A stretch of DNA of 64,000 bases from Pararhizobium sp. IMCC3301. Its GTDB lineage: Bacteria > Pseudomonadota > Alphaproteobacteria > Rhizobiales > GCA-2746425. Of the stretch, positions 3,251-6,821 are shown one piece after another. The notes beneath the pieces were generated by a model. It was given only the letters and a program-made list of their open reading frames with translations, had not been told where the DNA came from and ran no database searches. Both the position numbers and the translations under genes were made by a program. The DNA is taken from contig NZ_CP132336.1 in NCBI RefSeq assembly GCF_030758315.1, positions 1,798,001 through 1,862,000 on the forward strand, written 5' to 3'. How positions within the stretch are numbered: the first letter of the stretch is position 1; every line of letters starts with the position of its first letter.

Positions 3251-3643
3251 TCATTTTACCAAGCTCGCGCGTTCGGCGGCGGACAGAGCAAGAAGGCCTC
3301 CAGCAATGGCCCAGTTTTTCACGAATATCGACATCTGCCATCCGTCGGATGGTATGAGGTGGAAAAAACTTGTGACGATACAATAGATCGCCAGTGATCG
3401 GGCAACCGGAATGACATAAGTTCCCGATGCCAGCAGAATCGCGGCCGCCAGATTATAGATCGCGGCGGGCCAGACCAGAAAGCCTGGTAAAGCAAACCCC
3501 TCGAGCAGTGCAGTGACCGTCGAAGGATCAAAGACTTTCTGCACGGCACCTGCGAAAAACAGTCCGGCCAGCAACCAGCGGCCAACCAGCACCTCAATCC
3601 GACCCGGGCCGCTGGTGCTGCAGCCGGGATCGGGACGGCTCAT
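3251..3643 (-). CDS. DoxX-like small membrane protein
   Basis: A 130-residue protein with about four hydrophobic segments and the DoxX-type opening RWLLAGLFFAGAVQKVFDP. DoxX-family proteins are small integral membrane proteins often linked to redox or thiol stress; their biochemical role is mostly undefined. The start lies one base after the msrB stop, so it is translated in tandem with the exported methionine sulfoxide reductase. This pairing supports a role in envelope redox repair, possibly electron delivery, which is inference. Confidence 0.75.
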   Translation of the reverse strand: MSRPDPGCSTSGPGRIEVLVGRWLLAGLFFAGAVQKVFDPSTVTALLEGFALPGFLVWPAAIYNLAAAILLASGTYVIPVARSLAIYCIVTSFFHLIPSDGWQMSIFVKNWAIAGGLLALSAAERASLVK

Positions 3644-3644
3644 C

Positions 3645-4121
3645 TCAGGCCTCGGTTTTCGGTTTGAAGGTCAGGCTGACCCCATTCAGACAATGACGTT
3701 TTCCGGTCGGCTTTGGCCCATCGTTGAAAATGTGGCCCAGATGACTTCCGCATCTGCGGCAGTGCACTTCGGTGCGGGTGGTGAATAATGTATTGTCCGG
3801 TCTGGTACCGACAGCATTTGGCAGCGATTCATAGTAGCTCGGCCAGCCGGTTCCGCTGTCATATTTGGTTTTCGCATCATAGAGTGACAGATCGCACCCT
3901 TTGCATTGATAGATGCCTGCACGTTTTTCCAGATTCAACGGGCTTGAATTCGGCTTTTCGGTGCCGTCTTCCCGCATCACCAGATATTCGGTTTGCGTCA
4001 GCATGGCCTGCCATTCAGCTTTGGTCCGGGTAATTTCAAACGAACCTTCTGCTGCAAAGCCCGTTGCCGGGATTAACGACAAAGCGGCGCTCATTTTCAG
4101 GAAATCTCTGCGTTTCATCAT
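3645..4121 (-). CDS. msrB: Peptide-methionine (R)-S-oxide reductase MsrB, Tat-exported
   Basis: 158 residues. The N terminus reads MMKRRDFLKM followed by a hydrophobic stretch and an Ala-Xaa-Ala-like end (GFAAEG). This is a twin-arginine signal, so the enzyme should act in the periplasm, whereas most MsrB proteins are cytoplasmic. The SelR domain spans about residues 35-155, with zinc cysteines C73/C76 and C121/C124 and catalytic C144 in RHCLNG. It reduces methionine-R-sulfoxide in oxidised proteins. It lies downstream of the fasciclin gene after a strong hairpin and directly upstream of the doxX-like gene. Two adjacent ATGs (4121 and 4118) follow an AGGA site; either could be used. Confidence 0.93.
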   Translation of the reverse strand: MMKRRDFLKMSAALSLIPATGFAAEGSFEITRTKAEWQAMLTQTEYLVMREDGTEKPNSSPLNLEKRAGIYQCKGCDLSLYDAKTKYDSGTGWPSYYESLPNAVGTRPDNTLFTTRTEVHCRRCGSHLGHIFNDGPKPTGKRHCLNGVSLTFKPKTEA

Positions 4122-4152: not shown

Positions 4153-4185
4153 GAACCATCCCGGCTACTCTAACCGGGATGGTTC
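4153..4185. terminator. 12-bp perfect hairpin between the fasciclin gene and msrB
   Basis: Arms 4153-4164 (GAACCATCCCGG) and 4174-4185 are exact inverted repeats with a 9-base loop. It starts about 27 bases past the fasciclin stop. No T-tract follows on the minus strand, so it may be a partial terminator or mRNA-stabilising hairpin that sets the ratio of fasciclin to msrB/doxX, rather than a full stop. Confidence 0.5.
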
Positions 4186-4211: not shown

Positions 4212-4763
4212 TTATTTGGGAAGCAGAACTTTATCGATCACGTGAATCACGCCATTTGACTGGTTAACATCAGCAATCGTGATCTCGGCGGCATTGCCGC
4301 TTTCGTCAAAAATATAGACCTTGCCTCCGCGCACTTTAGCCGACAGCGCATCTCCGGAAACAGCTTCGAAATTGAAAGAGCCGTCCTTGGACGCTTTTGC
4401 CTTCTTCATGATCTCGGCAGCTGACCAGTTACCGGAAACGACATGTGCCGTCAGGATTTTGGTCAGGGTTGCCTTGTTTTCAGGTTTCAGAAGTGTGTCA
4501 ACCGTGCCTGCGGGAAGCGCCTCAAAGGCAGCGTTCACAGGAGCAAAAACAGTGAAGGGGCCATCACTTTGCAGCGTATCAACCAGCCCGGCAGCTTTCA
4601 CGGCAGCAACCAATGTGGTGTGGTCAGCTGAATTGACTGCATTTTCAACAATGTTTTTGGTTTCGAACATTGCTGCGCCACCAACTTCCGGGTTGGCTGC
4701 AAAAACCGCTGTTGTCATAAGGGCAGCAGCAGCTGCAATTGAAAGCTTGGACAGAATTTTCAT
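4212..4763 (-). CDS. Secreted fasciclin (FAS1) domain protein
   Basis: 183 residues from the ATG at 4763, preceded by AGGAGACG; an upstream in-frame ATG lacks a site. Residues 1-22 form a Sec signal peptide (MKILSKLSIAAAAALM... ending VFAAN). The rest is one FAS1 domain with the H1-like region (DGPFTVFAPVNAAFEALP) and the H2-like region near the C terminus (NGVIHVIDKVLLPK). Bacterial single-FAS1 proteins are periplasmic or extracellular and are often controlled by ECF sigma factors; molecular function is generally unknown. The promoter-like motif at 4813-4838 matches that of the DUF7282 gene, suggesting control by the adjacent ECF sigma factor. Confidence 0.9.
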   Translation of the reverse strand: MKILSKLSIAAAAALMTTAVFAANPEVGGAAMFETKNIVENAVNSADHTTLVAAVKAAGLVDTLQSDGPFTVFAPVNAAFEALPAGTVDTLLKPENKATLTKILTAHVVSGNWSAAEIMKKAKASKDGSFNFEAVSGDALSAKVRGGKVYIFDESGNAAEITIADVNQSNGVIHVIDKVLLPK

Positions 4764-4812: not shown

Positions 4813-4838
4813 CACGAAACGGCGGAGAAGAAGTTTCA
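4813..4838 (-). promoter_or_regulatory. Putative ECF promoter, TGAAACT-N15-CGTG
   Basis: On the minus strand TGAAACT (4838-4832) is followed after 15 bases by CGTG (4816-4813), 49 bases before the fasciclin ATG. The same two boxes with the same spacing occur at 6331-6356 before the DUF7282 gene. A GAAC-like -35 with a CGT-type -10 is the general ECF promoter form. That the sigma factor at 5620-6165 uses it is inference. Confidence 0.55.
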
Positions 4839-4936
4839 ACTTTCTCAAAAAAAATCAGATCAAACCGGTATGTGACAAATTCGGGCAGCCAGCGAACCAG
4901 AGTAGCAGCCCGGTTCCAGCGGCCTGAGAAAACAAT

Positions 4937-5623
4937 CTAGATCCGCGAAATTTCGCCAACCGCAAGAACGTCGCCGGTCGGCAGTCCTGTCGGCGATCCG
5001 CCGGGAGGCTCGTCGCTGACAGCAAGTGTCAAACCATCAAGAGCGGTCACAAGACCTGCCGGCAACACCAGCCGTGCGGTCGCAGTTTCTGGCAGAACAC
5101 CGATCGAAACCGGGTTTTCGCCTGCCGCAATGCCCCACAATTCAAGCGTCCTGCCACTGGCCGCGCCACCATCCGTGCGCGTCACCTGAATTTCATTGGT
5201 GACGTCATTATAGACGGCAAGGATACGCAGACTGTCGTTTTCGCCAGCCAGTTCGGTCACGTATAGGGTTCCGGTTTGCGGCTCCGGCAGGCTTACCAGC
5301 AGGAATGCCAGGAACCCGGCGACCGCCACGGAGGCGAAACTGACTCCCTGCCATAATCCGGCACGTTGCCATAACGATTGTTTGCGTTCCTTGCCGAACA
5401 GACGCGCTTCCAGAGCCGGCTTGATGGCGCGCGATGGTGCCACCGGCTCCACTGTTTCAGCGAGGCCGGCCATATCTTCCTGCCAGTCCGCCACCTGCTG
5501 CGCAAAAACCGGATCGCTCAGCACCCGCGCACGCGCGGCGCGCAGCTCTTCGCCTTCCAGAAGACGGAGCGCGTATTCGGCGGCCTGCATGGCATTTTCA
5601 TCTTTTTCGGTCGGATCACTCAT
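4937..5623 (-). CDS. Anti-sigma factor, RskA-like, membrane anchored
   Basis: About 228 residues from the ATG at 5623, which overlaps the sigma factor stop (ATGA). An upstream ATG at 5635 sits too close to its GGAG and is the alternative. The N-terminal cytoplasmic part is acidic (residues 1-75, MSDPTEKDEN...), a single membrane helix follows (SFASVAVAGFLAFLLVSL), and the C-terminal part outside the membrane has the RskA-type pattern (TLELWGIAAGENPVSIGVLP). It should bind and silence the sigma factor encoded upstream until a periplasmic signal triggers its release. No zinc-binding HxxxCxxC motif is visible. Confidence 0.88.
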   Translation of the reverse strand: MSDPTEKDENAMQAAEYALRLLEGEELRAARARVLSDPVFAQQVADWQEDMAGLAETVEPVAPSRAIKPALEARLFGKERKQSLWQRAGLWQGVSFASVAVAGFLAFLLVSLPEPQTGTLYVTELAGENDSLRILAVYNDVTNEIQVTRTDGGAASGRTLELWGIAAGENPVSIGVLPETATARLVLPAGLVTALDGLTLAVSDEPPGGSPTGLPTGDVLAVGEISRI

Positions 5624-6165
5624 CTGTCCATGCACTCCCTCAGGGAAAGCAGGCCGCGGCGCAACCAGGTGCGCATCGTATTCAGCGGCACTTCAAAGCG
5701 GGCGGACAGTTCAGCATAGCTGTCGCCATCAAGATAGGCACCCTTTATAGCTGCGCTGCGCTCTTCGTCCAGTTCCTTCAGGCAATTGGTAACGCGCTGC
5801 ATCTCGGAAGTATGCACTGCAGAGGTTTCAGGCGATGGCAGCGAAGACGCAAGGCTGTCGGTATAATCATTCAGATCTGAAGTCGGCTTTTGTGCCCGCA
5901 GCCGGTCAATCGCAGTATTGCGCGCAATCGTGATCAGCCATGTCATCGGACTGAGCCCATTGCTGGCATACCGATCGGCATTCTTCCAAACCTTGATATA
6001 TGTGTCCTGCATGGCTTCCTCTGCGACAGCCCTTTCATGCAACACACGAAGGCAGACCCCAAGAAGTTTCGCCGAAGTGAAATCATATAGCTCAGAAAAC
6101 GCCGCGCGGTCCCCCAGCGATATCTGAGCAATCAGATTTTCAATGTCGTTGATTGTCCGGGACAC
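5620..6165 (-). CDS. ECF RNA polymerase sigma factor
   Basis: About 181 residues from a GTG at 6165, chosen because GGAGGG lies six bases upstream; the ATG at 6189 would place that ribosome site inside the gene. Region 2 spans residues 15-85 (DFTSAKLLGVCLRVLHERA, DTYIKVWKNADRY, MTWLITIARNTAIDRLR) and region 4 the C terminus, with the helix-turn-helix DGDSYAELSARFEVPLNTMR. The stop overlaps the anti-sigma start, the classic layout for an ECF pair. Likely targets are the flanking fasciclin and DUF7282 genes, based on a shared promoter motif. No copy of that motif is seen upstream of this gene itself. Confidence 0.93.
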   Translation of the reverse strand: MSRTINDIENLIAQISLGDRAAFSELYDFTSAKLLGVCLRVLHERAVAEEAMQDTYIKVWKNADRYASNGLSPMTWLITIARNTAIDRLRAQKPTSDLNDYTDSLASSLPSPETSAVHTSEMQRVTNCLKELDEERSAAIKGAYLDGDSYAELSARFEVPLNTMRTWLRRGLLSLRECMDR

Positions 6166-6330
6166 GCATTTCCCTCCAGAAAGCAGCACTTATTTCGCAT
6201 CTATGACGGAGGATATAAAGCGCAGAGTGTAAATGTCGCGAAATTGATGCAGATTTTCTATTTTCATGATCCAGCGACGCCGGCAGAAATGAATTGGATC
6301 AGCATCCGGCATTAAAAAAATCACATTTTC

Positions 6331-6356
6331 TGAAACTCTTTGTCTGCCCTCACGTG
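6331..6356 (+). promoter_or_regulatory. Putative ECF promoter, TGAAACT-N15-CGTG
   Basis: TGAAACT at 6331-6337 and CGTG at 6353-6356 are separated by 15 bases and end 51 bases before the ATG at 6408. Boxes, spacing and distance to the start match the motif upstream of the fasciclin gene (4813-4838). Confidence 0.55.
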
Positions 6357-6407: not shown

Positions 6408-6821
6408 ATGAAAAAAGTCCTTACTGCAGCAGTTCTGAGCATGATGGCAACCACCGCATTTGCTGCCAGCCATTCAATGGCGCCTATGGTTGAAGCGCAA
6501 GCGCAGGCTGTCGAGAACGGCGTTGTCAGCGCGGCCAAAGTTATCGCCGGTGAGAATGGCTGGCTGGTTGTGCACCGCACTACTGCCGACATGAAGCCAG
6601 GTGCCGTAGTCGGCCACGCGCCATTGCGCATGGGTGAAAACATTGATGTCGCGGCCATTCTGACAGAAGATGTCAAATCCGGCGATATGCTGATGCTGAT
6701 GGTGCATTCTGAAGCTGGCGGCATGGAAATGGGCGGCTTTGAATATACCCTCGGTGCCAAGGAAGACGGTCCGGTCAAAATCGACGGCAAGCTGGTGATG
6801 TCGGTGATCACAGTCGAGTAA
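6408..6821 (+). CDS. Secreted DUF7282-type protein
   Basis: 137 residues from the ATG at 6408, which has GGAGAGAG directly upstream; the open frame extends further 5' without a ribosome site. A Sec signal peptide (MKKVLTAAVLSMMATTAFA/AS) is followed by a small beta-rich domain with the DUF7282 pattern (VVSAAKVIAGENGWLVVHR, then GENIDVAAILTEDV). Residues 100-115 are methionine rich (MLMLMV, GGMEMGGF), which could scavenge oxidant or bind metal; this is speculation. It is divergent from the sigma/anti-sigma pair, shares their putative ECF promoter and ends in a clear terminator. Function is unknown. Confidence 0.82.
   Translation: MKKVLTAAVLSMMATTAFAASHSMAPMVEAQAQAVENGVVSAAKVIAGENGWLVVHRTTADMKPGAVVGHAPLRMGENIDVAAILTEDVKSGDMLMLMVHSEAGGMEMGGFEYTLGAKEDGPVKIDGKLVMSVITVE

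Follow-up and report, generated by a model that had tools for sequence, protein, structure and literature searches.

In the window, the whole 64,000-nucleotide stretch of Pararhizobium sp. IMCC3301 DNA analysed here, the gene for a SigK-like ECF sigma factor carries inside its own coding sequence a copy of the promoter-like motif that precedes two neighbouring genes for exported proteins, a fasciclin-domain protein and a DUF7282 protein. The motif, its position in the sigma gene, its conservation among related loci, the synonymous constraint on its codons and its match to the putative target promoters are all direct observations, and the explanation that we consider likely is that the sigma factor drives the fasciclin and DUF7282 genes together with an embedded promoter of rskA, the adjacent anti-sigma gene, as a form of negative feedback.

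The sigma protein consists of regions 2 and 4 only (Pfam Sigma70_r2 and Sigma70_r4_2); its closest solved structure is SigK (PDB 4nqw, E 5.9e-30), and its C129 and C179, both present in 48/48 aligned sigmas, align with the SigK cysteines. Its scores fall below both NCBIfam cut-offs, at 151.4 versus 226 bits for SigK (PRK09646) and 258.8 versus 265 bits for PRK12514, which by sequence criteria makes it a relative of SigK and not SigK itself. The rskA ATG overlaps the stop of the sigma gene, and the encoded RskA-type protein contains, on a simple hydrophobicity scale, one strong hydrophobic segment near residues 94-112, consistent with a single-pass protein. Downstream, msrB and doxX are probably members of one operon with the fasciclin gene; between fasciclin and msrB, a strong inverted repeat without a T run was noted by eye at 4154-4184 (AACCATCCCGG...CCGGGATGGTT), which may trim or stabilise the fasciclin mRNA. 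A PADLOC search with the DUF7282 and RskA proteins returned zero matches. The same genome encodes a second DUF7282 protein (L198, G000:C1:2622921-2623232), which scores 90.3 versus 63.4 bits and has no motif upstream of its gene.

Table 1. Features of the sigma-rskA locus, in window positions, and of the paralogous pair located elsewhere.
Feature	Position	Strand	Basis or remark
Promoter-like motif of fasciclin gene, TGAAACT-N15-CGTG	4813..4838	-	Pattern search and conservation
Promoter-like motif of DUF7282 gene, TGAAACT-N15-CGTG	6331..6356	+	Pattern search and conservation
Embedded promoter-like element, CGAAACT-N16-CGTGTGTT	6041..6071	-	Inside sigma gene; codons A33-K34-L35 and R41-V42-L43 of P0001
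ECF sigma factor gene, SigK-like	5620..6165	-	Start inferred: GTG at 6165 after GGAGGG; P0001 starts one codon earlier
RskA-type anti-sigma gene (rskA)	4937..5623	-	RskA_C 57.6 bits (Pfam)
Shine-Dalgarno-like AGGGAG for rskA	5635..5640	-	Within 3' end of sigma gene, R-E codons AGG GAG
Fasciclin-domain protein gene	4212..4763	-	Pfam Fasciclin 115.8 bits; hydrophobic, signal-like N-terminal segment
DUF7282 protein gene	6408..6821	+	Pfam 63.5 bits; hydrophobic, signal-like N-terminal segment
MsrB (methionine sulfoxide reductase) gene	3645..4121	-	Downstream of fasciclin; without own motif
DoxX-family protein gene	3251..3643	-	Pfam; last gene of probable operon
Paralogous ECF/RskA-like pair and convergent cupredoxin gene	G000:C1:119906-121673 (L082, 5814-7674)		Sigma 46% identical

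An earlier sequence-only reading of this DNA had claimed that TGAAACT-N15-CGTG ends, on opposite strands, 49 bases ahead of the fasciclin ATG and 51 ahead of the DUF7282 ATG. Both distances are confirmed, with the ATGs at 4763 and 6408, and the window contains exactly these two matches; the expectation from shuffles is 0.04 matches, and two matches were reached in 0/100 of them. The genome-wide scan which that reading had proposed as a check returned 7 matches in 4.58 Mb (one contig) against 2 in a backwards-read control. Four of the five matches outside the window pair lie inside ORFs of 852-984 bases (3-kb stretches viewed), and the fifth (L089) lies outside called ORFs, with a 176-aa ORF, antisense by eye, about 70 nt downstream. 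The relaxed pattern TGAAACT-N15/16-CGT yields 22, 28 and 24 sites in three genomes of the genus versus 17, 26 and 18 in the reversed control, a chance frequency (22 versus 17 in the own genome) at which a bare scan was rejected as proof of a regulon; unlike such a scan, cross-genome conservation is the only informative evidence. It also qualifies the emphasis placed on the exact spacing: both window sites do have N15, but both counterparts in two relatives of the genus have N16, so that the identical spacer is a local detail and the motif itself the conserved feature.

To follow the motif across genomes, we gathered relatives of the sigma gene from whole genomes and from 27 loci of named genomes (including Mameliella, Roseovarius, Pseudooceanicola, Devosia, Rhodobacter and Ciceribacter); all sequence counts ignore kinship, as no tree was used, and named and other loci may share species. 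These loci repeatedly show the gene order sigma-rskA-fasciclin, in many cases with msrB next. Sought from -150 to +100 of each called start, GAAACT-N15/16-CGT is present at 22/25 fasciclin homologues (window included; shuffle mean 0.07, largest 1) and at 3/3 DUF7282 genes (window included; shuffle mean 0.01), as well as at 2/46 rskA starts. The three fasciclin starts without it are L039, where the motif lies deeper in an over-long ORF call, L075 and L077 (TGAAACA). None of 18 msrB starts in related loci carries the motif, and a motif of msrB's own was rejected. The main conserved blocks of a three-species alignment include the motif and the ribosome site. Away from the sigma locus, 5/6 fasciclin paralogues in genomes of the genus lack the motif, the exception being a second fasciclin in G003 (L193), and so do 3/4 DUF7282 copies in the own or related genomes, with a GAAACC variant in G019 (L199) as the exception. 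These comparisons give good support to the earlier proposal that fasciclin and DUF7282 belong to one ECF regulon of exported proteins, in which both genes would respond to the sigma factor.

The same reading held that the sigma gene lacks the motif and may not be autoregulated in the usual way. This is accurate for the upstream region, where GAAACT-N15/16-CGT occurs in sense at 0/48 sigma starts, and in the window no AAC-N15-18-CGT is found in the 260 bases upstream, so that a usual promoter before the sigma gene was rejected. Two antisense matches at sigma starts (L065, L066) occur where a DUF7282 promoter faces the sigma gene, and a scan for housekeeping promoters found 1 site against 2.2 expected. 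The claim overlooks, however, an internal copy, CGAAACT-N16-CGTG at 6046-6071 on the minus strand, whose conservation points to feedback through the anti-sigma factor. Its CGT lies 422 nt from the rskA ATG, and the ten bases GAAACTTCTT that follow the C of the embedded element are those that follow the T of the fasciclin promoter.

We aligned 48 sigma genes, namely 27 from named genomes, 20 from further genomes (3 of them paralogue-type genes of the genus) and the window sigma, most of which read NCG-AAA-CTn ... CGT-nTn-TTG at this place. Codon constraint was scored against each locus's own codon use in the 95 columns whose main residue is shared by at least 60% of rows, taking the most over-used codon of each. 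R41 CGT (44/45 versus 6.2 expected, z 16.5) and L43 TTG (34/45 versus 5.5 expected, z 13.3) rank 1 and 2 of the 95 columns, and K34 AAA (45/48, 16.8 expected), A33 GCG (35/36, 12.9 expected) and L35 CTT (28/48, 8.5 expected) are all within the top eight. Where Pro or Ser takes the place of Ala33, the codon remains CCG or TCG in 8/8 cases, and in a divergent subset of 22 sigmas less than 62% identical to each other AAA and CGT are each kept in 21. Scorable codons of the spacer (F, G, L) have z values of 1.4-3.6; the all-column median is 2.2. The remaining three of the top eight are codon 60 TTG (z 8.2), codon 179 AGC (z 7.5) and R184 AGG (14/32 Arg, 1.8 expected, z 9.5), the last of which belongs to the Shine-Dalgarno-like sequence before rskA and fits independent translation of the anti-sigma gene. 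Codon column 60, about 33 nt past the embedded CGT, reads TTG in 20, CTG in 9, ATG in 5 and GTG in 3 of 48 genes; with TTG, ATG or GTG in 28/48, it is at most suggestive of an internal start codon from which a truncated sigma might be made. Five sigmas lack the embedded element (L038, L044, L045, L062 and L079, three of them from Mameliella), and no fasciclin homologue was found in the stretch examined around any of the five.

The embedded element also resembles the target promoters beyond the bases by which these were chosen. Because the 26 target promoters (23 fasciclin, 3 DUF7282) were selected by GAAACn-N15/16-CGT, information comes only from the other columns. Their shared sequence is GAAACT ... 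CGTnnCTT; in 26/26 the fourth base past CGT is T, and this T corresponds to the first base of TTG, which would account for the preference of TTG over CTG at L43. With the tested locus left out of the scoring matrix, the median score is 22.9 for targets (range 11.7-26.2) and 21.5 for embedded sites (19.7 in the window), against an average of about 4 for shuffles that preserve both protein and codon use. In 43/48 sigma genes the top match is the embedded site, and synonymous shuffles reached its score in 5/4,300 cases overall and in none of 100 in 40/43 genes. Median best scores of control genes are -1.1 for rskA (n=46), 1.2 for msrB (n=18), 6.7 for histidine kinase (n=2) and lower for the others; the highest control, at 21.5, is a single rskA ORF that equals the embedded sites, and some rskA ORF calls are over-long.

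Strict matches at the homologous place were found in 26/27 close relatives, in 7/20 mid-distance sigmas of the same order, in 10/20 mid-distance sigmas of the same class and in 4/20 from other classes of the phylum; far ECFs gave 0/20, in itself a weak control since the residues differ there. Other lineages of the window-sigma family (L323, L324, L325, L327, L341 and others) have fasciclin promoters of the form GCATCC-N15/17-CGT, which by their sequence represent a switch of -35 specificity within one sigma family. We typed 88 loci by target promoter and set aside L075, where the fasciclin gene lies about 3.9 kb past rskA and the match may be due to chance. Among loci with GAAAC-type targets the full element is present in 33/34, and GAAACT and CGT in 34/34; among those with GCATCC-type targets, 7/13 of which were typed solely by sequence downstream of rskA that could match by chance, the full element is present in 4/13 (L323, L324, L325, L327). 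The association of the element with the -35 type has a Fisher p of 4.8e-6, a value that ignores phylogeny, and the 40 loci without a recognised target promoter have the full element in 28/40. Strict covariation was rejected, as GCATCC-type loci mostly lose the -35 yet keep CGT in 9/13, and this retention indicates that CGT may be conserved for some further cause.

In the mechanism that we propose, RskA at the membrane would hold the SigK-like sigma inactive, and the released sigma would direct RNA polymerase to GAAACT-N15/16-CGTnncTT promoters, that is, to those of fasciclin (probably together with msrB and doxX) and DUF7282 and to the embedded element at codons 33-43. RNA initiated at the embedded promoter would begin past these codons and encode rskA but not the full-length sigma, so that activation would raise the inhibitor rather than the activator and provide a built-in shut-off. 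The signal may be redox or photo-oxidative. That the embedded element is transcribed, that it is used by the window sigma and that it serves feedback we infer from its sequence. Several observations count against this reading: the CGT kept by GCATCC-type loci, the high scores of codons 60 and 179 outside the element, its frequent absence from more distant relatives and from the three Mameliella sigmas, the one rskA ORF that scores like the embedded sites, and a paralogous ECF pair of this genome with a promoter of similar type nearby. More broadly, we lean towards the view that in Alphaproteobacteria and a few lineages beyond, SigK-like sigma genes harbour a dual-coded promoter for their own sigma in what we take to be region 2.1, predicted to give a fixed one-way feedback that makes the inhibitor but never additional full-length sigma; a sigma lacking its N-terminus might also be made, from the candidate in-frame start about 33 nt downstream.

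Several other readings of these data have to be weighed. The two upstream motifs might resemble each other by chance or be bound by an unrelated regulator; this notion finds some footing in the relaxed matches of the own genome, which hardly exceed the reversed control, but is very improbable given the position-specific conservation in many related loci and the blocks of the three-species alignment. The upstream motifs could also be real promoters of the sigma while the internal element is no promoter at all, its codons being kept by translation speed, mRNA structure or a protein-binding site. Retention of CGT in 9/13 loci whose targets have another -35 speaks for such a cause; we nevertheless judge it unlikely, as the constraint follows the target promoters both in their bases, the T of TTG among them, and in their spacing, and leaves the scorable spacer codons much freer. 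RNA structure in particular was rejected as the reason for codon conservation, since the predicted RNA fold of window stretch 6020-6100 is ordinary (z 0.43, one species).

A paralogous ECF sigma (G000:C1:119906-120415) might instead control fasciclin, DUF7282 or the embedded element, whether by itself or through cross-talk. Among the genes downstream of TGAAACT-N15/16-CGT in three genomes of the genus, exactly four groups recur in all three, namely fasciclin, DUF7282, a cupredoxin (Pfam PF13473/PF00127) and a repeat protein. The last (L102, L112, L158) is 140-150 aa long, begins with a signal-like segment, contains repeats around SPDAxTPGxTG and matches no Pfam family. Seven more sets of related sites, many of them intragenic, recur in two of the three genomes, for example upstream of a 197-aa protein (L122/L145). 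The cupredoxin gene adjoins the paralogous ECF/RskA-like pair and is preceded by TGAAACT-N16-CGT in L082. The motif is present in all five genomes of the genus examined for it, G002 and G004 among them, and in these two we found no window-sigma orthologue (best matches E 9e-37 and 7e-35), no DUF7282 and no orthologous, linked fasciclin (best 53% identity in G002, none in G004). Since the cupredoxin motif is kept where the window sigma and its linked targets were not found, the paralogous pair probably recognises the same motif, which makes it uncertain which sigma drives which gene and renders cross-talk between the two sigmas likely; a similar overlap is described for RpoE1 and RpoE4 of S. 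meliloti in the portions of PMC3511301 consulted. Against the paralogue as the driver, motif-bearing fasciclin and DUF7282 genes mostly sit beside the adjacent sigma and distant copies mostly lack the motif, and we regard this alternative as doubtful; its cross-talk version is compatible with the explanation preferred here, feedback by the window sigma through the embedded rskA promoter.

MPT70 and MPT83 are fasciclin proteins. The window locus shares with the SigK-RskA-MPT83/MPT70 cassette of M. tuberculosis and Y. enterocolitica, as far as the latter is set out in the available portions of PMC7509140, an ECF sigma, an RskA_C anti-sigma, a fasciclin-type target and two equivalent cysteines, and, going by its sequence, a fasciclin gene under a sigma-specific promoter. 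According to the same portions, the SigK cysteines are numbered C133/C183, are needed for full activity and alter RskA binding with their redox state (PMC7509140), and by analogy the signal for the window sigma, with C129/C179 in all 48 sigmas, may be redox. In contrast to the SigK cassette, the window sigma would have further targets in DUF7282 and probably in MsrB and DoxX; the window -35 is GAAACT. The M. tuberculosis SigK group appears as ECF18 in PMC7509140 and as the AS19-1 partner in PMC7406223, in the parts of each consulted. Those of PMC7509140 further report that in M. smegmatis the promoter directly before sigK is not SigK-regulated, and that M. tuberculosis sigK is autoregulated through Rv0449cp; they describe no promoter within sigK.

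The demonstrated precedent for an embedded anti-sigma promoter is sigH-rshA of C. glutamicum, where, in the consulted portions of PMC3489674, the anti-sigma gene alone is transcribed from a sigma-dependent promoter within the sigma gene, as established by Northern blot and primer extension. The window element is likewise a candidate promoter of sigma consensus in sense inside the sigma CDS. The two cases differ in that SigH is another ECF sigma, and its transcripts start 62 and 66 nt before rshA versus about 420 nt here (PMC3489674, in part); the window element is moreover predicted from sequence, and its synonymous positions are conserved across many related genes. In R. capsulatus, RpoE-ChrR (rcc00699/00698) is described in part of PMC7074977 as nearer SigK/RskA than R. 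sphaeroides RpoE/ChrR and as induced by singlet oxygen (log2 changes 3.7 and 3.4). Three Rhodobacter loci (L056, L057, L059), possible counterparts of rcc00699, have the embedded element; no fasciclin was found in them, and L057 has a glutathione peroxidase nearby. S. meliloti RpoE1 and RpoE4 are, in the sections of PMC3511301 and PMC6180224 consulted, likewise alphaproteobacterial ECF/anti-sigma pairs whose small regulons overlap and contain exported proteins, but they belong to group ECF26, use a GGAATA-type -35 and autoregulate their own operons. Yet another arrangement is the Caulobacter sigV promoter, which lies inside the preceding gene (PMC13171946, in part).

Both the SigK-RskA-fasciclin cassette and the intragenic anti-sigma promoter are thus already known separately. 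New, as judged from sequence, are their combination, the conserved dual-coded promoter of predicted sigma type, its fixed place in the sigma gene and its codon signature in many related genes; a literature search, mostly of open-access papers, returned no described promoter inside a gene of the window-sigma family in the text available from them (including PMC7406223, PMC8103513, PMC3420878, PMC3597554 and PMC5507510). If the proposed feedback holds, one stretch of DNA would code both for a conserved sigma region and for the gene's own regulatory site, and the residues and codons there would have been shaped by the needs of a promoter. It would also explain how feedback operates in a family in which no sigma-type promoter was found upstream of the sigma gene, and gains in RNA-seq reads assigned to the sigma may then reflect an anti-sigma transcript begun inside the sigma gene.
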